Assembly: GCF_030824455.1 (NCBI RefSeq)
Contig: NZ_JAVBXR010000022.1
Location: 1-64,000 of the forward strand
DNA length: 64,000 bases
Reading direction: 5' to 3'
Source: Desulfobulbus sp.
Lineage (GTDB): Bacteria > Desulfobacterota > Desulfobulbia > Desulfobulbales > Desulfobulbaceae
Shown: positions 2,442 to 33,741 of the stretch, one piece after another
Position numbering within the stretch: the first letter of the stretch is position 1
Layout of the letters: each line of letters opens with the position of its first letter
The notes under the pieces: model-generated
The model's input: only the letters and a program-made list of their open reading frames with translations
Databases searched by the model: none
Told to the model about the DNA's origin: nothing
Position numbers and translations under genes: made by a program

Positions 2442-5129
2442 TCAGTCGCCTTTTTCCAGACTGTGACCGCAGCTCAGATGCACCACCAGAGGCACGCGCA
2501 ACGGCAGGGCCGCTTCCATGTGTTCCTGCAGCAGCCGGGATACTTCATCCAATTCTAGATTCGGAACCTCCAGCACCAATTCGTCGTGTATTTGCAGCAA
2601 CATACGTGATCGCAACCTACGCTGCAGCAACTCCTGGTGGACTCGCAACATGGCCAGCTTGATAATGTCGGCGGCGGTCCCCTGAATAGGCGTGTTGATG
2701 GCGGTTCGTTCAGCAAATTCCCGTTGATTGCGGTTGGCGCTGTTGATGTCCGCAAGCGGTCGCCGACGACCCAACAAGGTGGTTACAAAGCCGTCCTGCT
2801 TCGCCTGGCGGACAATCGCCTCCATGAAATCCTTAATTCCGGAAAAATGGGCAAAATAGCGGTCGATAAAAGTCTGCGCCTCTTTGCGGCTGACATGAAG
2901 CTGGCTGGACAGTCCAAAGCTGGACATGCCGTAGACAATGCCGAAGTTAATGGTTTTGGCGACCCGCCGCATATCGGAGGTCACCAATTCGGGAGCAACA
3001 AAAAAAATCTCCGCAGCTGTTCGCCGATGGATGTCTTGGCCCGTGCGGAAGGCGGTCAGCAATTCCTGATCCTCGGAATAATGCGCCAAAACCCGCAGGT
3101 CGATCTGCGAGTAATCGGCGGCGAGCAAACAGCACCCCTCGGCGGCGATGAAAGAGGAGCGGATGCGCCGTCCCTCTTCGGTGCGAATCGGAATATTCTG
3201 CAGATTGGGATTGCTTGAACTCAGCCGGCCGGTGGCGGTGCCGCACTGGTTGAACGAAGTGTGCACCCGACCTGTTTGGGGGTTGCGCAGGCTGGCTAAC
3301 CTGTCGACATACGTGGATTTGAGCTTGGCCAGATTGCGGTATTGGAGAATAAGCGCCGGAAGTTCATGAATTTGACTCAGGCTTTCCAAAACTTTGACGT
3401 CAGTGGACCACCCGGTTTTGGTCTTGCGCCCCTTGGGCAACTGCAGGGTTTCAAAGAGAATTTCCCCCAACTGTTTGGGCGAATTAATGTTGAATTCCAT
3501 GCCGGCGGCTTGATACACCTCCTGTTCGTAGACGTCCAACCGCTGCCCAAACTCAACCGACAAGGCATGTAACCGGTCGGCGTCAACCCGGACGCCCTCC
3601 CGCTCCATGGCGGCCAGCACCGGAATCAACGGCCCCTCGACCTCCGAGAGTAGGTTTGTTAGGTGGGCCTGCTCCAAGTGCGGCAGTTGCTCCCGGTACA
3701 ATTGCAAAGCCCCGAACACATCTTCGCAGCTGTAATTTTTGGCGGCTTCCAGGCCCGTCCGACAAAAAGCGTCATCGCTTTTGTCGTTATTGGTCACCTC
3801 GGCAAAACTGGTCATTTGCAGGTTGATTTCCCGGCAGAGATCGTCGAGCTTATAGGTTCGTCTATCCGGGTCAAGCAACCAGGCTCCGACCATGGTGTCG
3901 TGCAGCGGCCCGACCAGTTGCAGACCGCCGTTGTGGGGGGCCGCAAAGACGGCAAGATCAAATTTGAGATTATGGCCGATTTTGGTGATATTGGAATTTT
4001 CCAGCACCGGTCGCAACCCTTCGACAAGCGGTTTTAACGGCAACTGGCCTGCAATCAGGTTGCCCTCTTCGTCACGGTGCCCACAGGGCAGGTACCAGGC
4101 CTCGCCGTCCTCGCTGCACAACGACACCCCCACCAGACGCGCGCTCAACGTATCCAGGGAATCGGTCTCGGTGTCAACGGCTAGCAACGGAGACGCGGCT
4201 AGGCGTTCCACCACCGCGGCCAGCGCATCGAGCTGTTGCACCAAATGAAAACGGCCGGTCTCAATTTTAACCGCCTTGGTCTCTTCCTTGAGCAAAGAGT
4301 AAAATTCCAATTCGGTCAACAGGGCGCGCAGAGTCTCCGCGTCGGGCTCGACCATGCGATACTGTTCAATGTCTAGGGGGGCTTCAGCCTCGGTGTTGAG
4401 CCGCACTAGGTCGCGCGAGAGGAAGGCTTCGTCTCGGTGTTCTTTGATCTGCTGCACTATTTTGGACGCCTTTAAGCCGTCAATCGCCTGATAGAGTCCT
4501 TCCAGGGTGCGATGCTCAGCGATCAGCTTCTGCGCCGACTTGGGCCCGACGCCAGGCACGCCGGGAATATTGTCGGAACTGTCGCCGGTCAGGGCAAAAT
4601 AGTCGAGCAGCAGCGAAGGCGGGAGGCCGTACTTGGTCTCCACCGCCGCCTCGTCCAACACCCGGTCGTTCATCGGATCCCAGAGGGTAACGTTGGGCGC
4701 CACCAGTTGCAGCAGGTCCTTGTCGCCGGAAACAACCACCACCCGACAGCCCTGCGCAGACATCCTGGTGGCGACGGTGGCGATAAGATCGTCAGCTTCC
4801 TGATCCCCCTGCTCCAGACTGAGAATGCGATAGGCCTCGACCATTTTTCGGATGTAGGGGATCTGCTGCGCCAGATCCTCCGGCATAGGCGGACGATTAG
4901 CCTTGTATTTGTCGTAGAGCTGGTGGCGGAACACCGGCCCCCTGGTGTCAAAGGCCACGGCCAAGTAGCTTGGATTGCGCTCTTTTATCAAGCGGCGGAG
5001 AATGGCGATGAACCCAAACACCGCATGGGTCGGCAGGCCGTGCGAATTGGAAAGGGGCTTGACGGCGTGATAGGCGCGGTAAATATAGGCGCTGCCGTCG
5101 ATCAGGTACAACTCGGGCGTGGCGGTCAT
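2442..5129 (-). CDS. polA: DNA polymerase I
   Basis: An 895-residue full-length Pol I. The N-terminal 5'-3' exonuclease begins with LYLIDGSAYIYRAYHA and contains the FDTRGPVFRH and GDKDLLQLV segments. The 3'-5' proofreading domain keeps its acidic residues (AVDTETDSLD), so proofreading is probably active. The polymerase domain shows motif A (DYSQIDLRVLAHYS), motif B (RRVAKTINFGIVYG) and motif C (QIHDELVLEVP). The enzyme fills gaps and removes RNA primers in repair and lagging-strand synthesis. I start at the ATG at 5129 (MTATPELYL), which has an AAGAGAG ribosome site; the reading frame stays open further upstream but that part is not Pol I-like. It appears monocistronic. Confidence 0.97.
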   Translation of the reverse strand: MTATPELYLIDGSAYIYRAYHAVKPLSNSHGLPTHAVFGFIAILRRLIKERNPSYLAVAFDTRGPVFRHQLYDKYKANRPPMPEDLAQQIPYIRKMVEAYRILSLEQGDQEADDLIATVATRMSAQGCRVVVVSGDKDLLQLVAPNVTLWDPMNDRVLDEAAVETKYGLPPSLLLDYFALTGDSSDNIPGVPGVGPKSAQKLIAEHRTLEGLYQAIDGLKASKIVQQIKEHRDEAFLSRDLVRLNTEAEAPLDIEQYRMVEPDAETLRALLTELEFYSLLKEETKAVKIETGRFHLVQQLDALAAVVERLAASPLLAVDTETDSLDTLSARLVGVSLCSEDGEAWYLPCGHRDEEGNLIAGQLPLKPLVEGLRPVLENSNITKIGHNLKFDLAVFAAPHNGGLQLVGPLHDTMVGAWLLDPDRRTYKLDDLCREINLQMTSFAEVTNNDKSDDAFCRTGLEAAKNYSCEDVFGALQLYREQLPHLEQAHLTNLLSEVEGPLIPVLAAMEREGVRVDADRLHALSVEFGQRLDVYEQEVYQAAGMEFNINSPKQLGEILFETLQLPKGRKTKTGWSTDVKVLESLSQIHELPALILQYRNLAKLKSTYVDRLASLRNPQTGRVHTSFNQCGTATGRLSSSNPNLQNIPIRTEEGRRIRSSFIAAEGCCLLAADYSQIDLRVLAHYSEDQELLTAFRTGQDIHRRTAAEIFFVAPELVTSDMRRVAKTINFGIVYGMSSFGLSSQLHVSRKEAQTFIDRYFAHFSGIKDFMEAIVRQAKQDGFVTTLLGRRRPLADINSANRNQREFAERTAINTPIQGTAADIIKLAMLRVHQELLQRRLRSRMLLQIHDELVLEVPNLELDEVSRLLQEHMEAALPLRVPLVVHLSCGHSLEKGD

Positions 5130-13251: not shown

Positions 13252-13324
<73 letters not shown>

Positions 13325-13361
13325 CAAATAGTTAGTCCGGCGACATCCGCCGTTGTCCATT

Positions 13362-13396
13362 AAACCCGCTTCCTTCCTAGGATAGCGGGTTTTTTG
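13362..13396 (+). terminator. Terminator downstream of tRNA-Ala
   Basis: AAACCCGCT (13362-13370) pairs with AGCGGGTTT (13384-13392) across a 13-base loop, followed by more T residues. It probably ends the tRNA transcript and separates it from the integrase gene. Confidence 0.75.
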
Positions 13397-13438
13397 TTGT
13401 CCGCTCACTTCCATGGTGATACGCTAAAATCCATGAAA

Positions 13439-13493
13439 TTTGGGGGTAGATTTGGGGGTATTTTGACTAACCCCAAAACAAAATACCCCCAAA
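13439..13493. repeat. Left integrase arm-site repeats
   Basis: Two direct TTTGGGGGTA units have their G-runs 12 bases apart (starting 13442 and 13454). The second is also the left arm of a perfect 15-base inverted repeat, 13451-13465 against 13479-13493, with a 13-base centre. The same pair of units with the same 12-base spacing occurs at the right end (34930-34952). They lie just upstream of the integrase start and probably bind integrase or its excisionase; that role is inferred. Confidence 0.6.
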
Positions 13494-13510
13494 AGATGGA
13501 GATTACCGTA

Positions 13511-14779
13511 ATGGCTAAGAAAATAGTACCGTTGACGGACATCAAGATAAAAGCAATCAAACCCCAGACCGTCGCCAAGAAGATGTTTGACGGAGGCGGC
13601 CTCTTCCTGCTCGTTACCCCTTCTGGCGGCAAACTTTGGCACTTGAAATATCGTTTTGGGGGTATCGAAAAGCTACTCACCCTAGGCGCATACCCCCAAA
13701 CCAGCCTTACAAAGGCACGCCAAAAACGCGATGAAGCGAAACTGCTGCTTGCCGAGGGAGTGGACCCCAGCGCCACCAGAAAGGCACAAAAAGCAGCAGA
13801 AACAGAAGAAACGGGGACATTTGAGGTAGTTGCCCGCGAATGGCACGCCAAATTTTCCCCGACCTGGGCGTCGGGCCACTCTGACAAAATTATCAGAAGG
13901 CTCGAGCTGTACATTTTCCCTTGGCTTGGCAACAAGCCAATCCGCTCAATCACCGCCCCAGAAGTGCTAACTTGTCTTCGACGCCTCGAAGAGAAAGGCA
14001 CCCTCGACACGGCCCACCGCGCCAAGCAGAATTGCGGGCAGGTGTTCCGGTATGCCATCGCCACCGGCCGGGCCGACCGTGACCCCACGCCAGACTTGCG
14101 CGGCGCACTCCCAGCCATTCAAAAACAGCATTACGCGGCGATCACTGACCCTGAAGAGGCCGGGGCGCTCCTGCGGGCGATTGACGGTTACAAGGGCGGA
14201 TTCGTCACCCTGTGCGCCTTGAAATTGGCCCCGCTCTTTTTCTTGCGTCCTGGCGAGTTGCGACAGGCTGAATGGGCCGATATTAACCTTGACCAAGCCA
14301 CATGGAACATCCCTGTTGAACGGCTCAAGCTTAGGGTGACGGAAAAGGTAAGACGCAAGGGGGAATTCCATCTTGTTCCCTTGGCGGCTCAAGCCGTTGC
14401 CATATTGCGGGAACTGCAGGCATTGACAGGATCTGGCCGGTACGTGTTCCCGTCAATGCGAACCGACACCCGGCCAATGAGCGACAACACCGTCAACGCT
14501 GCGCTGCGGCGGCTGGGCTACGACACCAAAACGGAAATGACCGGTCACGGATTTCGGGCAATGGCCCGCACCATCCTTGACGAAGTCTTGCACGTCCGCC
14601 CGGAGATCGTCGAACACCAACTTGCCCACGCTGTCCGCGATCCACTGGGCAGGGCCTACAATCGCACAACCCATCTCCCAGAGCGGCGAAAGATGATGCA
14701 GGCGTGGGCGGATTACCTTGATGGGCTCAAGGAGGGGAAGGCGGACAAAATTGTTCAGCTCCGGAAGGCTTCAGGATGA
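13511..14779 (+). CDS. int: P4-type tyrosine integrase
   Basis: A 422-residue site-specific recombinase with an N-terminal DUF4102-like arm-binding domain (LTDIKIKAIKPQTVAKKMFDGGGLFLLV region), a central SAM-like core-binding domain and a C-terminal catalytic domain. The catalytic residues are visible: Arg in FFLRPGELR, the HGFR box (TGHGFRAMART), the second His region (EHQLAHAV) and the nucleophile Tyr in GRAYNRTTH. It integrates and excises the element at the adjacent tRNA-Ala gene. The ATG at 13511 is chosen because GGAGA lies eight bases upstream; upstream in-frame codons run through the arm-site repeats and look non-coding. Confidence 0.95.
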   Translation: MAKKIVPLTDIKIKAIKPQTVAKKMFDGGGLFLLVTPSGGKLWHLKYRFGGIEKLLTLGAYPQTSLTKARQKRDEAKLLLAEGVDPSATRKAQKAAETEETGTFEVVAREWHAKFSPTWASGHSDKIIRRLELYIFPWLGNKPIRSITAPEVLTCLRRLEEKGTLDTAHRAKQNCGQVFRYAIATGRADRDPTPDLRGALPAIQKQHYAAITDPEEAGALLRAIDGYKGGFVTLCALKLAPLFFLRPGELRQAEWADINLDQATWNIPVERLKLRVTEKVRRKGEFHLVPLAAQAVAILRELQALTGSGRYVFPSMRTDTRPMSDNTVNAALRRLGYDTKTEMTGHGFRAMARTILDEVLHVRPEIVEHQLAHAVRDPLGRAYNRTTHLPERRKMMQAWADYLDGLKEGKADKIVQLRKASG

Positions 14780-20317: not shown

Positions 20318-20639
20318 GGTGACAGGTGGTGACACTGTGGTGACACCTCAAACATAACATAACTATATGAAATTATTATATTGTGACAGTGGTGACAGTG
20401 GTGACACCGTTTTTCAAGGGTTAGATATTGAAAACACGAAAAGGGCTGTACACGCCACACGTGAGAAAAAAATAGTGTCACCACTGTCACCATCAACCTT
20501 ATATTTATAAATAATATAATAATATTAATATATTATATAAATTTCAGTGGTGACAACAGGGGTTAAAATGGTGACAACAAGCCTTAATTTGGTGACAACA
20601 AGCCTTAATTTGGTGACAGCAAGCCCTTGTTTGGTGACA
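20318..20639 (+). other. Iteron replication origin of the left module
   Basis: Exact GGTGACA copies start at 20318, 20328, 20339, 20391, 20400, 20549, 20570, 20591, 20612 and 20633. Inverted TGTCACC copies are at 20476 and 20485, and a one-mismatch copy is at 20382. The last five direct copies are exactly 21 bases apart, two helical turns. Between the two groups is an extremely AT-rich stretch (about 20496-20545), suited to strand opening. The primase-helicase gene ends just upstream. Iterons plus AT tract plus initiator gene is the classic plasmid/satellite origin layout. Confidence 0.8.
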
Positions 20640-20644
20640 GCAGA

Positions 20645-21442
20645 ATGGGATTTTTAGACGACATTGACGAAAGCAGCGGCCGGAGTGACACTGTCCAGCA
20701 TCCTGGCCCCGCCGCCGACGAGCAGCTGGTCAGCCCCAGACCACAGGCCCAACTCCTGCCGCAACGGCCCGCCGGCGGCGACACGGCAGTGAAGGAATTG
20801 GCTGCAGATCATGTTGAAAAATCGGAACAGACGGCCACTGAGAGCGGCCCGGATATCTGGCGTCCCTCGCCGGCAGCGCTCGAGGAACGCCGGCGGATTC
20901 TGAACCGCAAACCGGAGCGCCTTTCTTTCCTGGCTCCCTGCCCGGTCTGCCACGGTCGGGCCTTCCTGAACATCGACGGCGGGGGTTTTGTCTGCCTGAC
21001 CTGCACGCCCGGCCTTTTCGGCTATCCGGTGGAAGCGGCCGGCCCGGATCGGCCGCCGGTAGAGGATAAAGATATCGACTTGCGTCTGGCCAGCGACCAC
21101 CACGACACAGCAGCCGCGCCGCAGCCTGTGGGATGCGAACCAACAGAGGATCAGCGGGCGCACTTCGCGGCCGCCTGGCCCTGGGTCAAAGAGAACAAAG
21201 CCGCATTGTTGGCGGCGGGGTGGACCATGGCCGCCCTGGTGCGTCGCGCGAAATTCCGTTGGCCTTACGGCCCCTGGGGAGTGGCTTGGTTGCCGGTGTG
21301 GAGCAAGCCGGGGGTTGTTGTGACTATCGGTAGGCGCGGTGCAATCAGCTTCACATTTCCATCGTCGGCGCGGACGATCACGCAGATATCGCAGCCGCCG
21401 CAGCGCAGCAAAAAACACTCAACCAAGGAGGCAAGGAAGTGA
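20645..21442 (+). CDS. Unknown zinc-ribbon protein (265 aa)
   Basis: An unrecognised protein with a central zinc-ribbon-like motif, CPVCHGRAFL followed by FVCLTC (two CxxC knuckles). The N-terminal third is low-complexity and Pro/Gln/Ala-rich; the C-terminal end is basic. The start is the ATG at 20645; the longer TTG reading crosses the last iteron. That iteron ends five bases before the ATG and no ribosome site is visible, so an initiator bound there would probably also affect this gene. The stop overlaps the next gene's GTG (GTGA). Confidence 0.65.
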   Translation: MGFLDDIDESSGRSDTVQHPGPAADEQLVSPRPQAQLLPQRPAGGDTAVKELAADHVEKSEQTATESGPDIWRPSPAALEERRRILNRKPERLSFLAPCPVCHGRAFLNIDGGGFVCLTCTPGLFGYPVEAAGPDRPPVEDKDIDLRLASDHHDTAAAPQPVGCEPTEDQRAHFAAAWPWVKENKAALLAAGWTMAALVRRAKFRWPYGPWGVAWLPVWSKPGVVVTIGRRGAISFTFPSSARTITQISQPPQRSKKHSTKEARK

Positions 21443-22287
21443 TCACCCTGGACATCAAAGGCATCAAAGAATTGGACAAGCTTTTAAAATCAATGCCCGG
21501 AAAGGCGGACCGCGCGGCAAGGGCATCTTTGACAAAGACCGGCAAAGCCATCAAGGAAGAGGTGATTGCAGAGATGAAGCGCGTTTTTGATAAACCGACC
21601 CGCTTCACCCTCAACAGCCTTCAACTCGACCCTGCCACCAAAGGGAAGCCCGAGGCCAGAGTCTGGTTTAAGCAACCGGCCCGGATGCAACAGCACTACC
21701 TTGTCCCACAGGTTGAGGGCGGCGGGCGAAAGCTCAAGGGTTTTGAGCGAGGTGTCGGCATGGGGCGGCTCATCCCTGGACAATTCGCCCGCATGACACC
21801 TGAGGGGAACGTCTCCCCTGGTCAGCTCCGGCAAATCATGTCCGTCCTGGGAAAAGCGGAGACATCAGCTGGCTTCTCCGCGAACCTCACCGCACGTTCG
21901 GCGCGGCGGAACATGAGCGCCCGCGATTACGTGATCATTCGCCGGCGGAACGGCCGCCTGCTGCCCGGTATCCACCAACGATTTCAAACCAAGGCCGGTT
22001 TTGGGGCAAAGACCAAGCGGACCATTGCCAGGTTCGGGACCTGGCAAAAAGGCAACCGCAAGGTGGCTGTGCGCGACCCCAAGACTGGCAGGATTCTCCG
22101 ATGGGTCTCCCCGGCATCCCGGATTCAATCGATTGTCCGCGCCAAGGGCCTGCGGCCCGTCATGTTGCAGGGGAAAAATGGTCCGATTAAACCATTGCTG
22201 CCTTTCTACGATATTGCCCGACGGGTGTTCAACGAGAAGTTCATCCCCACGTTCCACGCCACCTTCGAAACATTCCTCAAATCATGA
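21439..22287 (+). CDS. Phage minor tail / tail-completion protein (gpZ- or gp10-like)
   Basis: A 282-residue basic protein starting ITLDIKGIKELDKLLKSMPGK, then an Ala/Lys-rich helix (RAARASLTKTGKAIKEEV). This is the opening typical of lambda gpZ and HK97 gp10-type tail-completion proteins, which join head and tail. The rest is Arg/Lys-rich with a C-terminal YDIARRVFNEKFIPTFHATFE helix. The identification is by pattern, not by motif residues. It begins at a GTG overlapping the previous stop, with an AAGGAGG ribosome site. It is the first gene of the tail block. Confidence 0.6.
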   Translation: MITLDIKGIKELDKLLKSMPGKADRAARASLTKTGKAIKEEVIAEMKRVFDKPTRFTLNSLQLDPATKGKPEARVWFKQPARMQQHYLVPQVEGGGRKLKGFERGVGMGRLIPGQFARMTPEGNVSPGQLRQIMSVLGKAETSAGFSANLTARSARRNMSARDYVIIRRRNGRLLPGIHQRFQTKAGFGAKTKRTIARFGTWQKGNRKVAVRDPKTGRILRWVSPASRIQSIVRAKGLRPVMLQGKNGPIKPLLPFYDIARRVFNEKFIPTFHATFETFLKS

Positions 22288-22457
22288 GCGTAGAACCAGT
22301 GAAAATAAACGGCGCGGCAAAAAACAACGCATTCTGCACAAGCAAATCAAGGTGCAGCACTTTTGTTTCACCACCACATGCTGTGTTTATGTTCCGTTTT
22401 TCCGACCAAAATAACATATTCCCCGTGCGCGTTGGTCGGGGTGCGAAATACCCGTGA

Positions 22458-22499
22458 GTGGGCAAACCGTCAGAGGGACCCGCGCCGCCCACCTTTTTT
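22458..22499. other. Hairpin segment in the 22288-22556 gap
   Basis: GTGGGC (22458-22463) pairs with GCCCAC (22487-22492) around a 23-base loop and is followed by C plus six T. On the plus strand it could end the upstream tail gene transcript. On the minus strand the same stretch reads ...GGAGPSDGLPTHG..., similar to a GAGLPTH peptide encoded by the hairpin at 26801-26876, so it may be a second copy of that structured element in opposite orientation. The rest of the gap (about 270 bases) shows no gene. Confidence 0.45.
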
Positions 22500-22609
22500 C
22501 TTTCCGCCAGCCCTGAACAGGTCGACCTGAGGGGGGCGGGGTTAACAGGAAAAGGCATGACGAACGCTTTATTGGATCAGTTTACCAGCAAAGGTCAAGA
22601 GGATCAGAC

Positions 22610-22999
22610 ATGAGCAAGAAGAACACGCACACCGCATTGAGCGAGGGCAAGGGCAAGCAACCCCGGTTCAACGCGGCTATCACCGAGGAAGAACTCAAAC
22701 TGGCGCTTGCCGGTTGTGAGACGTGGGACAGCGCCCGGCCTGTCGTCTTGGATCTCCTGGCCAAGAAGAGCGGCGAACTCTTTCAGATATACCAAGGGGA
22801 CGCGGATGCAGCCGGAAAGGAGTGGATTGACACCATGAACCTTTTGACCAAATACCGCGCCCATCTCTTTCAATGCCTTCACATGTGCTCTTGTGCAATG
22901 GAGCGGATGGCCATCATAGGGGAGCACCTCGCTCAGGGCATGGAGCAAGTGGAGCAACCTAAACCCGTCGTCCGCATTCACCGGGAAACAATGCATTGA
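22610..22999 (+). CDS. Unknown protein in the tail block (129 aa)
   Basis: No recognised domain. A soluble helical protein, with a Cys/Met-rich stretch near residues 90-97 (CLHMCSCAM). A GAGG ribosome site precedes the ATG. An 18-codon ORF beginning at 22557 ends in the overlapping ATGA, so translation may be coupled. Its place between the gpZ-like gene and the chaperone-like gene suggests a tail-related or satellite-specific role; that is inference. Confidence 0.65.
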   Translation: MSKKNTHTALSEGKGKQPRFNAAITEEELKLALAGCETWDSARPVVLDLLAKKSGELFQIYQGDADAAGKEWIDTMNLLTKYRAHLFQCLHMCSCAMERMAIIGEHLAQGMEQVEQPKPVVRIHRETMH

Positions 23000-23107
23000 A
23001 GCAATCACACCGGGCGGAGCAGTCGCCGACCGGCACACCAACACCTGCCAGGCAAGGACGCCGGGCGGGAACACCAACCAGGGCAACAAGCCCAGAGGCA
23101 CACAATC

Positions 23108-23455
23108 ATGCAAGACAGCGTCACAACCACATTCCAAGACCAATCCATCACCGTGAAAGAGTTGACCGTGAAGCAGGTGCGGGAACTTTTCGAACGCCTC
23201 AAGAACGAACCGTCACTCTTCATTGACGATCTGATTGACCAACCGGTCCCTGCTTTGGCGATCAGCGAATCCACGGGAATCTCGCTTGAACAGCTCGACG
23301 CCGCTAAGCCATCGGAGGTGGTGGCCCTATGTGGCGAGGTGGTGAAAGTAAACCCTTCCTTGGCCTCGATGATAAGCCGACGCATCGAGGCTGCCGAACG
23401 GCTGGAGCAGGCCATTCTTTCCGCAAAGAGCTTGACCGCGCCATCTGTATCATGA
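23108..23455 (+). CDS. Tail-assembly-chaperone-like protein
   Basis: A 115-residue protein with the pattern ITVKELTVKQVRELFERL..., later ISLEQLDAAKPSEVVALCGEVVKVNPSLASM. This matches my recollection of Mu-type tail assembly chaperones (gp41-like), which sit directly upstream of the tape measure gene. The stop overlaps the ATG of a short ORF in the -1 frame (ATGA), the position where chaperone genes of many tailed phages make a second product. No canonical X-XXY-YYZ slippery heptamer is visible. Pattern and position support the call; it is not proven. Confidence 0.6.
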   Translation: MQDSVTTTFQDQSITVKELTVKQVRELFERLKNEPSLFIDDLIDQPVPALAISESTGISLEQLDAAKPSEVVALCGEVVKVNPSLASMISRRIEAAERLEQAILSAKSLTAPSVS

Positions 23456-23538
23456 TTGCCGTCGGCCACACCAGGGTCTGGGAATATGGATTTTCGTTTT
23501 TTCTCACAGCTCTGAAAGAGACACCCGTACGAGGTTAA
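23452..23538 (+). CDS. 28-residue ORF coupled between chaperone and tape measure genes
   Basis: The ATG at 23452 overlaps the TGA of the chaperone-like gene and the ORF stops four bases before the tape measure ATG. The peptide starts MIAVGHTRVWEYGFSFFLTA and has the feel of a real structural fragment. The same frame is open upstream, so a -1 frameshift could instead attach it to the chaperone. It is short and unverified. Confidence 0.5.
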   Translation: MIAVGHTRVWEYGFSFFLTALKETPVRG

Positions 23539-23542
23539 CCAC

Positions 23543-25978
23543 ATGGCCACACAATCTAAAATTGAAGCCATTCTTTCCCTGAAAGACACCAACATGTCAT
23601 CGGGAATCGGCAAGGCGACCAAAGGACTCCAGGGATTGCAAAAGGAGGCTGAAACCCTGAAGGTCAAGCTATCTGGCCTATCGGCAATGAAGTTGGCCAT
23701 TGGCGGATTAGCTGCCGGAGGGGCAGTCGCTGGCGCCGCTTACTACGCCAATGAGGTGAGGAAGATAGCGGATGAATACACCAACCTCAACTCTCGCTTG
23801 AAGCTGGTCACCGACGGCGAGCAGGATCTGACCATGGTGCGCGAACGCCTTTATCAGATCAGCCAGGAGACCGGGACCGAGTATGCCGGCAACGCCGACA
23901 GCTACGCCAAGCTGTCCAGGGCGGTGAAAGACCTTGGAGGTACCAGCAGTGATACATTGCAGATTGTGGAGATGGTAAACAAGTCGTTGACTATCAATGG
24001 CTCCACAACCGCCATGTCATCGGCCTTTATGCTGCAGTTTGCCCAGGCGATGGGTAGCGGCGTACTGCAAGGAGATGAATTCCGCTCCATGCTGGAGAAC
24101 AACGGCTTCTTTGCCTCAGAACTCGCCAAGGCTCTCAACACCAATATTGCCGGCCTCCGCGACATGTCAAAAAATGGTGAGTTGACCGCCGACAAACTGC
24201 GAGCCGCCTTCCCGAAAATGTCCCAAGCCATCAACTCCGAATTCAGCAAGATTTCCCCGACAGTCGAACGGGCCATGATCGTGCTGGAAAACAGCTTCAA
24301 GCGCATCGTCGATGAATCGAACAGAGCCAGCGGCGGTACAGGATCCATATCTCAATCCATCATCAACCTTGCACAAACCATTGACCGCAACCGGGATGGA
24401 ATCATTTCCCTGTTCACAAAAATGATTGACCTGGGCGCATGGAGCACCAAGCAGGTGGCTGGCGTCGGTACAGAGCTTGAGGTTCTTGGCCAAGTGGCCA
24501 AGGGTAATCTTGGTTTCTTCGACTACATCAAAATGACCAGCGTTGAAGAAATGCATGAATGGTTGAAGAAAAACGTGCAGGTCCTCAACGAGACCGGCCC
24601 GGCGGCTCAAAAGGCTGGAGCCGAAATATCCAATTCAGCCAAGCGGGCTGGCGCCGCCCAAAAACAGGCGACCGGTGAAGCCCTCAAGGAGATGAAGAAG
24701 CAGTACCAGGACTACGCCAAAGAGATTCGCCAGCTGCAGGATGATATCTCTGGGCGTGAAAAATCACTCGCCGCCGAACTTCGCGATATGGCCCGATCCG
24801 GCATGTCCGACTATTCCGCGTGGCAGGATCAGAAAAAAGAGGCTCAGGAGTACGAAACGGCCGCCAAAAAGGCAGCAAAAGAGGCGGCAGCGGCCATGAA
24901 CGCGGGGGACAACATCACCGCCGGGGCGAAATGGAAGGAAGCGGTTGGTTACGCCGATCAGGCCAAGCAATCGTACAGTCACCTCAACCAGGAGGTGACA
25001 AACGGCGACACTGTCTTGATATCCAAGCAACAAGCCTTAAAAACCGCCATGGACGGGGTTAAATCCGCTGGCGAACTCTCAATTTCCATCGTCAAACAGC
25101 AGCAGGCCGCCACCGCTGGGGCTATGAATTCGCTGACCGAGCAATCCGGATATGCCAACTTAGCCGACGGCATGACCAAGGCCGAGCAACAGTGGCTTGC
25201 CAGTTGGGAGAACATGAAGAACGCCGCCGGCGAGAAGATCAACCTGGTGAAGCAGCAAATCGATTCCATGGGCGCCAATGCCGAGCAGGTGAAAGAGAAG
25301 ATGAAGGCCGCCTTTGCCGACGTCTTTCAGCCACCGGAAGACGGCGACTGGGGGAAGGTGTGGGAGGCCATGGAATCGGGGTCAAAATCGTCGGCGGGAA
25401 CCGTGACCAGCGATTGGGAAAAGGTTTGGGACCAGTTCCTTGCCTCTGGAAGTGAAGACATTGCAACGCTGGAAAAGCAACTCACCGAACTCACCAAAGA
25501 CAGGCATGTGAAGGTTTACGTGGAATCTGTTCAGCAAAACCGCTGGGGCGGGCTGATCGGCGCTTATCAGACCGGCGGCCAGGTTTCACGTTTTGCCCGT
25601 GGCGGCAAGCTGCCAGGATACGGCGGCGGCGACCGGGTGCGGGCGCTGCTGGAGCCGGGCGAATTTGTGGTCCGGAAGGAAGCGGTGGCGCGGTATGGCG
25701 TGGGCTATTTGCAAGCGCTCAACTCCATGCGGCTCAACGACATCAGCACGGTCAAGGCCAGGATCGGCGGCTTGATTGCCGGGGCCAACAGTGCTGCATA
25801 TCAGCGGTTCCAACAAGGCGGTCTGGCAACCGCCAAGGCTCCGGCTGAAACGGTCAACCTTAACCTGACCCTGCCGGGAAGCACTCAGGCCCACCCGATG
25901 GTGATCGGAAAGGAACATATCCCGCAGCTTCTCAGGGCTGTCGACGCTTACAACAGACGGCGAAGCAGCAACAGATAA
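23543..25978 (+). CDS. Phage tail tape measure protein
   Basis: An 811-residue protein. An N-terminal helical region leads into a Gly/Ala-rich hydrophobic stretch (LAIGGLAAGGAVAGAAYYA), then the tape-measure domain (SRLKLVTDGEQDL, KLSRAVKDLGGTSSDTL, MLQFAQAMGSGVLQGDEFRSM, NNGFFASELAKALN). Then come long helical coiled coils rich in Lys, Glu and Ala, and a C-terminal GGKLPGYGGGDRVRALLEPGEFV segment typical of these proteins. Tape measure proteins set tail length and are ejected with DNA. At about 0.15 nm per residue it would give a tail of about 120 nm if all of it counts; this is an estimate. No tail tube, sheath or baseplate gene is nearby. Confidence 0.92.
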   Translation: MATQSKIEAILSLKDTNMSSGIGKATKGLQGLQKEAETLKVKLSGLSAMKLAIGGLAAGGAVAGAAYYANEVRKIADEYTNLNSRLKLVTDGEQDLTMVRERLYQISQETGTEYAGNADSYAKLSRAVKDLGGTSSDTLQIVEMVNKSLTINGSTTAMSSAFMLQFAQAMGSGVLQGDEFRSMLENNGFFASELAKALNTNIAGLRDMSKNGELTADKLRAAFPKMSQAINSEFSKISPTVERAMIVLENSFKRIVDESNRASGGTGSISQSIINLAQTIDRNRDGIISLFTKMIDLGAWSTKQVAGVGTELEVLGQVAKGNLGFFDYIKMTSVEEMHEWLKKNVQVLNETGPAAQKAGAEISNSAKRAGAAQKQATGEALKEMKKQYQDYAKEIRQLQDDISGREKSLAAELRDMARSGMSDYSAWQDQKKEAQEYETAAKKAAKEAAAAMNAGDNITAGAKWKEAVGYADQAKQSYSHLNQEVTNGDTVLISKQQALKTAMDGVKSAGELSISIVKQQQAATAGAMNSLTEQSGYANLADGMTKAEQQWLASWENMKNAAGEKINLVKQQIDSMGANAEQVKEKMKAAFADVFQPPEDGDWGKVWEAMESGSKSSAGTVTSDWEKVWDQFLASGSEDIATLEKQLTELTKDRHVKVYVESVQQNRWGGLIGAYQTGGQVSRFARGGKLPGYGGGDRVRALLEPGEFVVRKEAVARYGVGYLQALNSMRLNDISTVKARIGGLIAGANSAAYQRFQQGGLATAKAPAETVNLNLTLPGSTQAHPMVIGKEHIPQLLRAVDAYNRRRSSNR

Positions 25979-26003
25979 TCTCCATTCAAAAAAAGAGGAT
26001 CAC

Positions 26004-26630
26004 ATGAACGATCAGGAAATAACCAAACAGGTTGACGAAGAAACCAGCTACATCCCACTCAAGGATCTTGAAACTTTGCCGGATGCAATTTTGGCGCAAC
26101 TCTACACAATGGGCGGCCAGCTGCCGGGGTATGGCGGGGGGGACAAGGTGCTTGTGCTCCTGGAGCCTGGCGAGTTCGTCATACGCAAGGAGTCCGCCGC
26201 CCACTATGGGGAATCCTTCCTGCATGCGCTCAACGATATGCGCCTTGATGCCAGCAGCATCAATACTGAGCATGCACACGCCGACGGTCCCGGTGAAACG
26301 GTGTTTTTCGATTTCAGGCCACCAGCAGGAATCCCTGCGGAACAGGCACGCGATCACCTGGAACAGATCGAAGACAACAACGAGGCCATCAGCGCAATCA
26401 CCATGGCCCTGAGCACCATCTCATTGTTGACGATGAAACCACGGTGCGAAACCTGTGGCCAGTGGCACGATATCCTTACCAACGGGAGAAATGTTGGTGG
26501 TCTGTACAGCGCCATCCATGCGCTCACAGACCATTCAAACCATCTCACTCATGAGGCCAGGCGCTGCCTTGTTGAACAGCGCAAAGAAGGGGAAACAGCG
26601 GGCGACGGGTCTCAACCAATCATTTCTTGA
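26004..26630 (+). CDS. Protein repeating the tape-measure C-terminal motif (208 aa)
   Basis: Residues about 38-82 (GGQLPGYGGGDKVLVLLEPG..., then EFVIRKESAAHYG, then LHALNDMRL) closely match the C-terminal segment of the preceding tape measure protein, including spacing. After this comes a helical part and a small CETCGQWH motif that may bind metal. It lies 25 bases after the tape measure gene with its own GAGG ribosome site. It may be a duplicated tape-measure tail piece or an accessory of the tail tip. Confidence 0.7.
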   Translation: MNDQEITKQVDEETSYIPLKDLETLPDAILAQLYTMGGQLPGYGGGDKVLVLLEPGEFVIRKESAAHYGESFLHALNDMRLDASSINTEHAHADGPGETVFFDFRPPAGIPAEQARDHLEQIEDNNEAISAITMALSTISLLTMKPRCETCGQWHDILTNGRNVGGLYSAIHALTDHSNHLTHEARRCLVEQRKEGETAGDGSQPIIS

Positions 26631-28730: not shown

Positions 28731-29053
28731 ACGCAATACAGCAGCCAGAAAAACCAACCGTGCTTTCCGCATCTGAACAAAGGGACGTTGAGGCGGCCGC
28801 AAACCGAATTCGAGAAATTGGAATATCTGTCGCCACGCTCGGAAAGATCATGTCCGCCATTCAACTGCAGCTCATCTTGGAAGAGGAACCAAGTGCGCCG
28901 TGCGGCGACTGCCAGATGCATGAAATCGTTAAGACACCCACCCTCTTTGCGCTGCAAACAGCCATCAAAGAGTTGGGTGGAATTGTCCATACCCTTGGCG
29001 ATAACATAGAGACCACCATTCATCACGCCCACCAGCGCAAGGGAAGCGCATGA
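28727..29053 (+). CDS. Unknown small protein (108 aa)
   Basis: Starts at the ATG at 28727, which overlaps the previous stop; the longer reading begins inside the previous gene. It is helical, with a CGDC motif in the middle (APCGDCQMHE) that may bind metal or form a disulfide. It overlaps the start of the second primase-helicase gene. Function unknown. Confidence 0.63.
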   Translation: MNAIQQPEKPTVLSASEQRDVEAAANRIREIGISVATLGKIMSAIQLQLILEEEPSAPCGDCQMHEIVKTPTLFALQTAIKELGGIVHTLGDNIETTIHHAHQRKGSA

Positions 29054-31239
29054 TGAATGCTATCGAAACGATAGGCCGCGCCCTGGGCGGCAAGCCAAAA
29101 CCGGGCGGCGGCTGGATGTGCCGTTGCCCGGCCCATGACGACAAGGAGCCCTCTTTGTCAATCGATCTGGGCGACAACCTGCGGCCGGTGCTGAAATGCT
29201 GGGCCGGATGCTCCAATCAGGATGTTATCAGCGCCTTGCGTGCCCGCGGACTCTGGCCCGAGCGTTTGCCGCTGACGGGGCGCGCTCAACCGGCACCAGA
29301 GAAACGAACCAAAGAGACAAGCAGCCAGCGGCGGCCGGATCGGGAGGCGGCCGCCGCCGAGGCTGTCCGACGGTGGGAAGCGGCCGGCCCGGCAAATCGT
29401 GACCACCCCTATCTTGCCGGCAAGGGCCTCGAAGGCCAAGGGCTCCGTCAGGAGGGCCGCCTGCTGCTGGTTCCAATGTGCGACACGGAGGGCGCGGTTT
29501 GCTCCCTCCAGACGATCAGCCAGCAAGGACAGAAGATGTTTTTGAAAGGCGGCGCCGTCTCTGGCCTGCTGTTCCTCCTTGGCGACCCGCCCGAACCAGA
29601 TTGGCCGATGTGCGTGGCTGAAGGCTGGGCCACCGGCGCGGCGATCCATGCCGCGACCGGCTACCCGGCGGCGGTGGCTTTTTCCGCCACAAATCTGACG
29701 CAGGTTGCCGGAATCATCCAAACGAAGCACCCCGGACACCAGATCATTGTCTGCGCCGACGATGACCTCAATCCGGATAAAGAGAACAACACGGGCATCG
29801 AGGCGGCCACTGCTGCCGCCATGTCTGCCGGCGGGTTACTGGCCATTCCTGGTATGGGCAAAAAAGCAGATTTTTGGGATCTGTGGCACGAACAAGGCCC
29901 TGACGCAGTACGGAAGGCGATTGCAGACGCCAAGCCGGTTGACGATGCAGCAGACTGCACAGACCATAATCCCGAACAAGAGGACCCGGCCGCCATGATT
30001 CGTTATCTGGCGGGGCTGTCAGCCCTCGAATACGAGCAGAAACGGCGCGCTGTTGCCGAGGCGTTGGGTGTTCGAGCCTCTGCCCTTGACCGGGCCGTCA
30101 AGGAGGCAGGAAAAAGCCAAAATGAAAGCATTCTGCCGTTTGATGAACCAGACCCGTGGCCAGAACCTGTTGAACCGAGCCAACTGTTGACCGACATTGC
30201 CGCCACCATCCAGCGGTTCATTATCTGTTCCACCGAGGTCGCCCACGCCGTGGCTCTTTGGTCCGCCATGACCTGGTTCATGGACGTGGTGCAGGTCGCC
30301 CCTCTGGCGATCATCACCGCCCCGGAAAAACGGTGCGGTAAGTCGCAGCTGCTGTTTCTGCTGGGGCGGCTTTCCGCCAGATCCATCACGGCAAGCAGCA
30401 TTTCCCCGGCGGCGCTGTACCGAGCCATCGACGCGTGGCAACCGACCTTGTTGATTGATGAAGCCGACGCCTTCCTGAAAGACAACGAGGAATTGCGCGG
30501 GATCATCAACAGCGGCCACACCCGGGATTCAGCGTATGTCATCCGTACCGTTGGCGACAACTTCACCCCCACCAAGTTCAACACCTGGGGCGCAAAGGCT
30601 ATTGCCGGAATCGGCCATGTTGCCGACACCATCATGGACCGATCAGTTATCCTGGAGCTTCGGCGCAAACTGCCCCATGAAGAGGTGGCCCGGCTCCGCT
30701 ACGCCGAGGCTGATCTCTTCGGCAACCTGCGGGCAAAGCTCGCCCGGTTCGCCGACGATTACGCCGCCATGGTCCGGCAAACCCGCCCGCCTCTTCCATC
30801 GTGCCTGAACGACCGGGCTCAGGACAACTGGGAACCCCTGCTGGCAATCGCCATGGTTGCCGGCGGCCATTGGCTGGAGATCGGAACCAGGGCCGCCATC
30901 AAACTGTCCGGCTGCGAGAGCGCGGCGCAAACCATCGGCGGTGAACTGCTGGCCGACATCAAGGAAATCTTTGAGATGAGGGATATAGACAGGATCAGCA
31001 CGGCTGATCTGATTAGGGCGTTGTGCGATGATGATGAAAAGGCCTGGGCGACCTACAACCGGGGAAATCCCATCTCGCCACGACAGCTGGCCAACAAGCT
31101 GAAAGGGTACGGCATTGCCAGCAATACGCTTCGCTTCCGGCATGCAGGCCTCGCCAAGGGGTATGAAAGAGAGCAATTCGAGGAGGCGTTTTCTCGGTAC
31201 ATACCGCCTCAACCTCCAGTTCTATCCGTAACAGCGTAA
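29050..31239 (+). CDS. DUF3631 primase-helicase of the right replication module
   Basis: A 729-residue protein unrelated in sequence to the primase at 17587. It has an N-terminal zinc finger (MCRCPAHDDKEPSL... LKCWAGCS), a TOPRIM-like part (MCVAEGWATGAAIHAA, later IIVCADDDLNPD), a P-loop-like ITAPEKRCGKSQLLFLLG, a Walker B LLIDEADAF, and the DUF3631 signature (DRSVILELRRKLPHEE, LNDRAQDNWEPLLAIA). Such proteins combine priming with helicase-type ATPase activity in plasmids and satellites. It is the last gene of a chain with four-base overlaps from 26931. Its stop lies inside the first repeats of the CGTAAC cluster. Confidence 0.88.
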   Translation: MMNAIETIGRALGGKPKPGGGWMCRCPAHDDKEPSLSIDLGDNLRPVLKCWAGCSNQDVISALRARGLWPERLPLTGRAQPAPEKRTKETSSQRRPDREAAAAEAVRRWEAAGPANRDHPYLAGKGLEGQGLRQEGRLLLVPMCDTEGAVCSLQTISQQGQKMFLKGGAVSGLLFLLGDPPEPDWPMCVAEGWATGAAIHAATGYPAAVAFSATNLTQVAGIIQTKHPGHQIIVCADDDLNPDKENNTGIEAATAAAMSAGGLLAIPGMGKKADFWDLWHEQGPDAVRKAIADAKPVDDAADCTDHNPEQEDPAAMIRYLAGLSALEYEQKRRAVAEALGVRASALDRAVKEAGKSQNESILPFDEPDPWPEPVEPSQLLTDIAATIQRFIICSTEVAHAVALWSAMTWFMDVVQVAPLAIITAPEKRCGKSQLLFLLGRLSARSITASSISPAALYRAIDAWQPTLLIDEADAFLKDNEELRGIINSGHTRDSAYVIRTVGDNFTPTKFNTWGAKAIAGIGHVADTIMDRSVILELRRKLPHEEVARLRYAEADLFGNLRAKLARFADDYAAMVRQTRPPLPSCLNDRAQDNWEPLLAIAMVAGGHWLEIGTRAAIKLSGCESAAQTIGGELLADIKEIFEMRDIDRISTADLIRALCDDDEKAWATYNRGNPISPRQLANKLKGYGIASNTLRFRHAGLAKGYEREQFEEAFSRYIPPQPPVLSVTA

Positions 31240-31428
31240 CAAGATCATAAAAACAGAGAAATACGGCGTAACGTCTTCCGTAACGCAACAGATTGTTACC
31301 GTAACAAGGGAGGATGGGGCCAACAGCTTGACGACTAAGGCGTTACGGATAAGAACAGTGTTACGGTAACGGTTACGTGTCGAATGTGTTGCAAATTATT
31401 GTATTTTCGTTTTTGTTACGCTGTTACG
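31227..31428 (+). other. Second repeat cluster, candidate origin of the right module
   Basis: CGTAAC or its complement GTTACG occurs at 31227, 31235, 31267, 31279, 31300, 31342, 31360, 31366 (as GTAACG), 31372, 31415 and 31423. This is about eleven copies in 200 bases, several extended to CGTAACA/TGTTACG. A short AT-rich tract lies at 31391-31414. The motif is different from the GGTGACA iterons. Direct adjacency to a primase-helicase stop matches the left module. The first two copies are inside the gene's last codons. Copies are in both orientations and not evenly spaced, so a regulatory role is also possible. Confidence 0.6.
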
Positions 31429-31534
31429 GATAGAGCCACCCTAGACAGGAAAGAACAAGGCGCAGGGGCAATGGAATCGAAGTCCACGATGAAAACAGAG
31501 TCGATATAGAATTGGCAAGCTCAAGGGAAGGGCA

Positions 31535-32598: not shown

Positions 32599-33741
32599 CT
32601 ATCTCTTTTCGGGGAGATAAGCGAGCAACCTGCTTGTGTTTGTGTGATATTTTCCATCTTTTCTTATGAGTAAATCCATAGCAACCAATTCGTCAAGGTC
32701 ACGCTTCAGAGTGGCCTGGGCAAGAACGGCGTACTCCTTGCTCGTTTCTGGATTCGCATACGCAATCTCATTCATATCAAACCAACGTGAGAGCGGCGCC
32801 GCCAACATCAAACTTCGCTTGCGCTTGAACACGCTTCTTTTTGTGTATTTGAAGTCTGCAAACGTCTCAAAAATATGGTTCCTCCAAAAGATTTTCAACT
32901 GGCCATCCTGTATGACTTCAAGGTTCTCCTCTAGCCCATCCCGAAAACCTTGTATTGCGTAAGCGATAAATTTTGTTAGGTCCCTTTCTTTCCTAGCATT
33001 ATTCAACTGTCGATAATACTCTGTTCTGGTCTGGTTGTAAAAATTCGAAAGAATATGAGAAACCACACTTGGTAGCCCTTTACGCAACAAGATGAAAAAT
33101 TCAACCAATCGACCGGTTCGCCCATTGCCATCTGCAAAGGGGTGTATCCATTCGATATAGACGTGGGTTACAATCGCCTGGATAACCGCTGTGCTGAAAT
33201 CTTGTTCGCGTGGATAATGGAAATCGATCAAAAGCCAATCGCAAAGCTTCTGCATTAATTCAGGAACATATCGATGTTCAGGGGCAAGGTAAGGTCCAAC
33301 TTGCCGGCGGTCCTCACGCCATTTGCCAGGAATTCCGTCAATATGTTCCCCAAGATTTTGCGTAATACGACGATGGAAATCTCTTACCAAATCGGGCGTG
33401 ATGAGCCATTCCTGCCCTTCCCTTACCACAGCTTTCAAGAGATGGTTGAATGCCTCTATGACGTTAGTGACCTCGATTTGTTGATATTGCCTACTTACAG
33501 GCAGCCGATCCCCCTCGTATATCCGCTCAATTTCTTCCTGAGTTAGAGTGTTCCCCTCAATGGCGGTGGTAGCCTGTGCACCTTTGATCAAAGAAAGCTG
33601 TAGCAACGTATCCCGATCCTTTGGCCGCAACGGGCTATTTGCGATAATCCTGCTCATCGCCTCGCATTCTCCCAGCTGATACTGAACTTTTGTGCTTATT
33701 TCCCAGTGTCTTCTAAATATGAGATGCGGATATCCTTCCAT
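32599..33741 (-). CDS. Fic/DOC family protein
   Basis: A 380-residue Fic protein. The N-terminal domain contains an inhibitory-helix motif TTAIEGN (the S/T-x-x-x-E-G/N class). The catalytic loop HPFADGNGRTGR is intact, including the catalytic His. A C-terminal winged-helix segment follows (YAVLAQATLKRDLDELVAMDLLIRK). Fic enzymes usually transfer AMP to target proteins and are held inactive by the inhibitory helix. It faces the rest of the element and has its own promoter region with a very long palindrome 13 bases upstream of the start codon. It is probably cargo of the element, with a possible defence or regulatory role; this is inference. Confidence 0.92.
   Translation of the reverse strand: MEGYPHLIFRRHWEISTKVQYQLGECEAMSRIIANSPLRPKDRDTLLQLSLIKGAQATTAIEGNTLTQEEIERIYEGDRLPVSRQYQQIEVTNVIEAFNHLLKAVVREGQEWLITPDLVRDFHRRITQNLGEHIDGIPGKWREDRRQVGPYLAPEHRYVPELMQKLCDWLLIDFHYPREQDFSTAVIQAIVTHVYIEWIHPFADGNGRTGRLVEFFILLRKGLPSVVSHILSNFYNQTRTEYYRQLNNARKERDLTKFIAYAIQGFRDGLEENLEVIQDGQLKIFWRNHIFETFADFKYTKRSVFKRKRSLMLAAPLSRWFDMNEIAYANPETSKEYAVLAQATLKRDLDELVAMDLLIRKDGKYHTNTSRLLAYLPEKR

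Follow-up and report, generated by a model that had tools for sequence, protein, structure and literature searches.

Introduction

RepAM of actinomycete ICEs (pMEA300) belongs to the same Pfam family, DUF3631, as the protein described here, and in both cases a DUF3631 gene and an integrase gene lie on mobile elements. According to PMC3218068, RepAM was first shown to be responsible for autonomous replication in pMEA300, and rolling-circle initiation with pC194-like nick sites was predicted for it. Two Streptomyces plasmids encode further members of the family with a repeat array at the gene end, as here; these proteins have no fused Toprim domain, and a separate prim-pol gene precedes them.

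Iteron-type origins beside initiators are already known. In the pri-rep-ori modules of SaPIs and PICIs and in SCCmec Cch2, a C-terminal domain of the initiator helicase binds short repeats just downstream (PMC7581432, PMC6092414): that of SaPI Rep recognises iterons directly downstream of its own gene (PMC7581432), and a rep-ori segment of an E. coli PICI supports plasmid replication (PMC6092414). Compared with these modules, the array described here often lies within the coding sequence, the right array of our element has no AT-rich block, and a residue-to-base code runs through the family. In phage P4, 8-bp type-1 repeats (GGTGAACA), present in both orientations, begin ~45 bp past the gene of the Toprim primase-helicase alpha, and P4 itself has a second repeat cluster at ori (crr and ori). 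P4-type satellites carry the genes psu, sid, delta and epsilon. Similarity to P4 alpha is confined to the Toprim domain (38% over 154 query residues). Lambda O has origin iterons inside the initiator coding sequence (PMC7466680); these lie mid-gene, whereas ours occupy the 3′ end and show many alternative cores. Finally, in the iteron-related domain of begomovirus Rep, an iteron base and a Rep residue co-vary and set replication compatibility (PMC2974675), although this plant ssDNA virus protein is unrelated and serves as an analogy only. A search of open-access literature on DUF3631, RepAM/pMEA300 and iteron covariation, to which the primary pMEA300 RepAM paper does not belong, found no report of such arrays or of such a code; an earlier description of repeats for pMEA300 RepAM may exist.

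Here we analyse a window of 64,000 nucleotides from Desulfobulbus sp. (NZ_JAVBXR010000022.1, positions 1 to 64,000). A preliminary description of it had proposed two unrelated primase-helicases, each abutting its own repeat family inside one integrase-bounded element, and had read this as either a fused pair of satellites or one element with two replicons.

Organization of the element

The features of the element are collected in Table 1.

Table 1. Positions of the element's features in the window
Feature	Position	Strand	Remarks
tRNA-Ala(ggc), presumably the element's attachment gene	13252..13325	+	ARAGORN; attachment role inferred from the integrase next to it
Tyrosine integrase, P4 type, Arm-DNA-bind_3	13394..14779	+	Pfam
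Left-module primase-helicase, Toprim, phrog_1139, 899 aa	17587..20286	+	Arg858 in a C-terminal motif tracking the core
Left array, 12 GGTGACA iterons	20318..20639		
AT-rich block within the left array, candidate melting site	20498..20543		Almost pure A and T
Right-module DUF3631 (RepAM-type) primase-helicase	29050..31239	+	Zinc motif, Toprim, MCM-like AAA+ core, C-terminal winged helix
Codons for wing residues 693-702, which are predicted to read the core	31126..31155	+	Window: T693, L701, A702
Right array, ten CGTAAC/GTTACG copies	31227..31428		Five per strand; first copies overlap the stop codon

Of the proposed integrase-bounded element, the window shows the single integrase beside tRNA-Ala; a right attachment site was not found in the window. 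None of the 13-mers of the tRNA-Ala region has a second copy in the window, and 18-, 20- and 24-mers from the 3′ part of that region, searched at up to 20% mismatch, have no match in 26–48 kb. The sequence is host-like from ~35.3 kb on, as judged by relatives' epimerase genes, and no empty site was found among the relatives' epimerase-gene sequences.

The order left primase, tail genes, DUF3631 is shared by the window, Desulfobulbus rhabdoformis (L004) and G111. In G111 the two modules lie in an element of 20.3 kb with a 52-bp direct repeat (tRNA-Arg end) at its borders, and the left primase of G111 is only ~39% identical to that of the window. Another locus, L003, has a partial tape-measure gene upstream of DUF3631, consistent with the same layout in truncated form. 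Between the modules lie minor-tail-like and tape-measure genes (window 21439–26630; L004 3597–7732; L135 of G111), and the 811-aa tape-measure protein is 72–75% identical to the L004 and G111 copies. The proteins scanned from two-module elements included no recognisable capsid or terminase, and a general PHROG scan of the element proteins gave no match to psu, sid, delta or epsilon. It would be unusual for a satellite to bring a tail-length ruler of its own. Downstream of the right array, a Fic-family gene occupies 32599–33741 on the minus strand, and a distant Fic-like match was seen to the left of the G111 element.

A search for elements with a single module revealed that each occurs alone with its own repeats, and none of the loci examined combined one primase with both repeat sets. 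Elements with DUF3631 alone are common: among 45 DUF3631 loci whose upstream sequence spans 3.5 kb or more, a tyrosine integrase lies upstream in 33 and a left-type primase-helicase in one (L004), L080 giving a weak match over the Toprim region only. The DUF3631 gene was absent from all five left-type loci L143–L147 (8.5–20 kb of sequence). Repeats of tRNA ends bracket the DUF3631 gene in 6 of the 45 loci, with four convincing pairs (28–40 bp or more, spanning 6.6, 6.7, 7.8 and 14.4 kb) and two weak ones (15 and 18 bp). Within the DUF3631-only tRNA-repeat elements of ~6.6–7.8 kb, the scanned proteins included no other recognisable initiator. One element, L048, has the gene order integrase – unknown – AlpA – unknown – DUF3631 and is similar in content to PICMI satellites (PMC10803314).

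Left module

As the preliminary description stated, the left primase-helicase ends at GGTGACA iterons. Its relatives have arrays of the same layout with an AT-rich block and different cores, among them TGGTGACA, TGGCCACA, TGGGTACA, TGGGGACC, TGGCAACA and TGGCTACA; in ten left arrays measured, the best 40-nt segment had an AT fraction of 0.90–1.00. The position of Arg858 was occupied by R or K in 6/6 proteins whose core has G at position y (the notation is given below) and in 0/8 others, a small sample compared without regard to kinship, in which two of the eight are near copies and one array, that of L144, is mixed. This left-type array (G149:C492, ~4400–4800) combines TGGTGACA-like with TGGTTACA-like units and may be in the middle of a change of core. 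In a profile comparison, the left primase and the DUF3631 protein align only over Toprim (160 columns); the term unrelated is thus right in part.

Repeat array at the 3′ end of the DUF3631 gene

The right ORF encodes 729 aa and matches PF12307 (DUF3631) with an E-value of 4.6e-47, its 161 bits comparing with a gathering cutoff of 24, as well as Toprim_3 (Pfam). The cluster reported at the end of this gene is real, with exact copies numbering ten instead of about eleven: five on the plus strand are followed by five on the minus strand, so that the copies form inverted repeats, and the stop codon TAA at 31237–31239 is part of the second CGTAAC copy. The enrichment of CGTAAC near 31220–31430 was borne out, since elsewhere in the window there is at most one CGTAAC/GTTACG per 211 bp. 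Within 300 nt past residue 716, CGTAAC (n = 10) is the top hexamer, and all of 200 dinucleotide shuffles gave lower counts (largest 6). Over the whole window and both strands, CGTAAC occurs 22 times, against a mean of 11.8 and a maximum of 19 in shuffles.

Both modules share with SaPI/PICI origins an initiator helicase gene directly followed by an iteron array. The second SaPI/PICI property, iterons that flank an AT-rich region, is found in the left arrays and not in the right array: right arrays in general have a median best 40-nt AT fraction of 0.68 against a background of 0.67, with one unusual locus among 98. For this reason we did not file the right module as a SaPI/PICI ori. Either the DNA would have to melt at another place, or the array would be a binding site with another role.

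Repeat arrays in DUF3631 relatives

Relatives were collected by a genome scan (79) and a virus scan (3), with one half-length match from a phage collection. Leaving out L050 and L054, whose contigs stop at the gene, and L049, which is too short, 81 loci had enough DNA past residue ~716. A GTNAC cluster lies directly past this residue in 45 of the 81. We read 22 loci, mainly ones without the cluster, and most have another repeated core at the same place, such as CGCAAC, CGCTAC, CGTCCC, CGCGAC or CGACAC; CGTCAC is a further core among the relatives. The top hexamer exceeded dinucleotide shuffles at p ≤ 0.01 in 44/79 loci; a clear array is absent in some relatives, e.g., L073, L156 and L194.

In most relatives read, the ORF continues through the repeats and the array is translated, its amino acids mirroring the repeat (SAT..VAD with CGCAAC, SVT..VTD with GTNAC). 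An early stop makes the array non-coding in the window, L003, L004 and G111; the alignment of these four is invariant at 59/60 motif positions versus 59/165 other positions. When the coding tails were resampled with synonymous codons, the top hexamer was observed 5.19 times per tail against 2.99 expected, an excess with p ≤ 0.05 in 51/81 tails and p ≤ 0.01 in 34/81. Moreover, the unit occurs in at least two reading frames in 66 of the 68 arrays having at least four copies. Several frames together with an excess over the synonymous expectation indicate that selection acts on the DNA. Judged by sequence, the array belongs to the DUF3631 gene.

Two records call for separate mention. In L002 (PV029746.1, “Pseudomonas phage Phipami28”), a DUF3631 island gene is flanked by ABC-transporter and Rhs genes, and the record looks like chromosomal DNA, not phage. 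H68, in the Sulfolobus islandicus plasmid NC_010365, is a weak tblastn match to a Streptomyces DUF3631 protein (23%, E 4e-6).

Core switching and covariation with wing residues

Writing the repeat unit as [C/G]G-x-y-z-C-A, we compared its core with the columns of the protein alignment. Of 122 hits, 101 were left after dropping identical arrays; 92 of these entered a tree built on the helicase and DUF3631 part, and 73 of the 92 have one unambiguous core. On the 92-tip tree, the T/C label at x requires 22–23 changes, at least 11–12 of which are forced by well-supported branches.

Among all columns scanned, residue 701 had the highest rank for y (0.79 bits, z 12.6) and residue 702 that for x (0.79 bits, z 9.5); column 716 was disregarded in one scan, where its high rank stems from gaps at the alignment end. 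T701 accompanies y = A in 28/31 cases and y = C in 19/20, V or I at 701 accompanies y = T in 12/16, and the six arrays with y = G have three R, two N and one T at 701. P702 goes with x = C in 13/25 and A702 with x = T in 28/43. Pagel tests gave LR 31.9 (p 2e-6) for V/I at 701 vs. y = T, LR 28.6 (p 9e-6) for P at 702 vs. x = C and LR 14.5 (p 0.006) for T at 693 vs. x, while 38 random control columns (of 203 available, run against y only) had a median LR of 3.9 and a maximum of 8.8. The conservative independent-pairs test, with seven pairs on well-supported branches, gave p 0.06–0.125, above 0.05. In the sequences compared, the repeat core and wing residues 693, 701 and 702 thus co-vary after phylogenetic correction.

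The window protein has Leu at 701 and falls outside the rule; its nearest relatives with the same core (L003, L004, G111) have Thr. The loci L045 and L047 are 91–92% identical in the helicase and only 71% in the wing segment, with cores GGTAAC vs. GGGCAC, a possible replacement of reader and array as a unit.

The residue rule was written down before further loci were fetched, and the inclusion criterion (a new array with at least four copies, a unique top core and a covered residue) was fixed at scoring. The rule was correct in 10 of 11 new arrays, three of which come from one genome (G1103) and one of which (L253) is weak. The miss was L248 (V with CAA); L232 (N with GCTACA) also departs from the rule and L246 (T with TAA, three copies) fits it, both outside the scoring criterion. 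Not covered by the rule were L230, L222 (Q with CCGTCC) and L262 (Q), and the tied arrays L219, L260 and L261 and hits without a recognisable wing pattern were left unscored. Three later Actinomycetota arrays, L279, L280 and L283 (the last close to L279), fit the rule, with N693, V701 and at least 12 CCGCTAC copies. A Nonomuraea relative has a CCGTAAC array and Pro at 701, which places it outside the rule.

Structure models and proposed mechanism

An AlphaFold model built with 43 sequences (mean pLDDT 85.6) predicts a helix at 677–685 and hairpin strands at 692–696 and 700–706, which puts residue 693 and residues 701/702 on the two wing strands after the helix. The core (358–624) resembles MCM-type helicases in VIA-align, with Z up to 17.7, an rmsd of 3.6 and 252 aligned residues. 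The matches mostly span 358–624, so that none of the solved structures was matched to the wing domain. A model of the C-terminal fragment of the left primase alone was unusable (pLDDT 36). For DUF3631, the combination of an MCM-like AAA+ core with a predicted iteron-reading wing suggests a self-loading helicase and not a rolling-circle initiator.

Taking as precedents the C-terminal domain of SaPI Rep on its downstream iterons and plasmid replication from the PICI rep-ori segment, we infer direct contact, loading, origin firing and orthogonality as follows. The C-terminal winged helix would grip each 8-bp unit while the wing reads the variable core: residue 701 would mainly see y (T with A/C, V/I with T, R/N with G), and residues 702 and 693 mainly x. 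MCM-like AAA+ rings would then assemble on the array, the helicase would unwind and the Toprim domain would prime. Since the 3′ end of the gene holds reader and array within ~300 bp, the two are inherited together and can change together; frequent core switching may in this way give each element a private, non-cross-reacting origin. Two modules of this kind, one with the core GGTGACA and one with CGTAAC, are present in the window element.

Discussion

DUF3631 is probably a self-loading initiator and the CGTAAC array its cognate binding array, which would most likely serve a second replicon as origin or helicase-loading site. The array is read as a cognate origin or initiator-loading site because DUF3631 is RepAM, a published replication initiator. 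Our doubt about a complete right origin comes mainly from the missing AT-rich block. That feature also favours a reading in which the array binds the DUF3631 protein as a site of autoregulation or titration that sets the level of this protein or the copy number, while the element is replicated from the left origin or with the aid of a helper: the left arrays do have such a block, the window element contains a second, complete-looking origin, and arrays can sit wholly in coding sequence. Yet the arrays lie at the 3′ end of the gene and not at its promoter, the DUF3631-only elements described above gave no other recognisable initiator, and RepAM is reported as the pMEA300 initiator (PMC3218068), which leaves this reading unlikely. 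The least probable account takes the repeats as a protein-level feature, a low-complexity Val-Thr or Ala-Asp tail with repeating codons, as might be thought from the translated arrays and from in-frame GTNAC encoding Val-Thr. Synonymous resampling (51/81 tails) and the use of several frames and both orientations largely refute it; moreover, the array lies outside the coding sequence in four close relatives, the window among them, and is mostly non-coding in Streptomyces.

The inverted copies could also form RNA or DNA hairpins, an attenuator or terminator that changes by base-pair compensation, and the two orientations of the copies, which form inverted repeats, speak for this. Pairing predicts neither the single core per array, which holds even among same-orientation copies, nor the tracking of wing residues by the core, so hairpins are a highly improbable explanation. 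As for the composition of the element, a fusion of two satellites in this genome would agree with the occurrence of each module alone elsewhere, but the shared order in L004 and G111, together with the deep divergence of the left primase, speaks against a recent event; we regard it as very unlikely. The better half of the original proposal is one element with two replicons: the two modules, each primase with repeats of its own, are evident, and both arrays would act as origins.

Beyond this element, DUF3631/RepAM may tentatively be seen as a large family of self-contained replicons in which two to three wing residues encode the choice of origin, with reader and array switching as a unit, the window running two orthogonal replicons and the switching driven by avoidance of cross-talk between co-resident elements; we consider this wider picture possible rather than probable. 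A family-wide residue–iteron rule would allow replication compatibility to be predicted from sequence, point to the origins of many unnamed elements and help to build orthogonal replicons. RepAM, for which rolling-circle replication was predicted, would be recast as a helicase-type initiator, and the family would offer a natural experiment on why replication specificities diversify.
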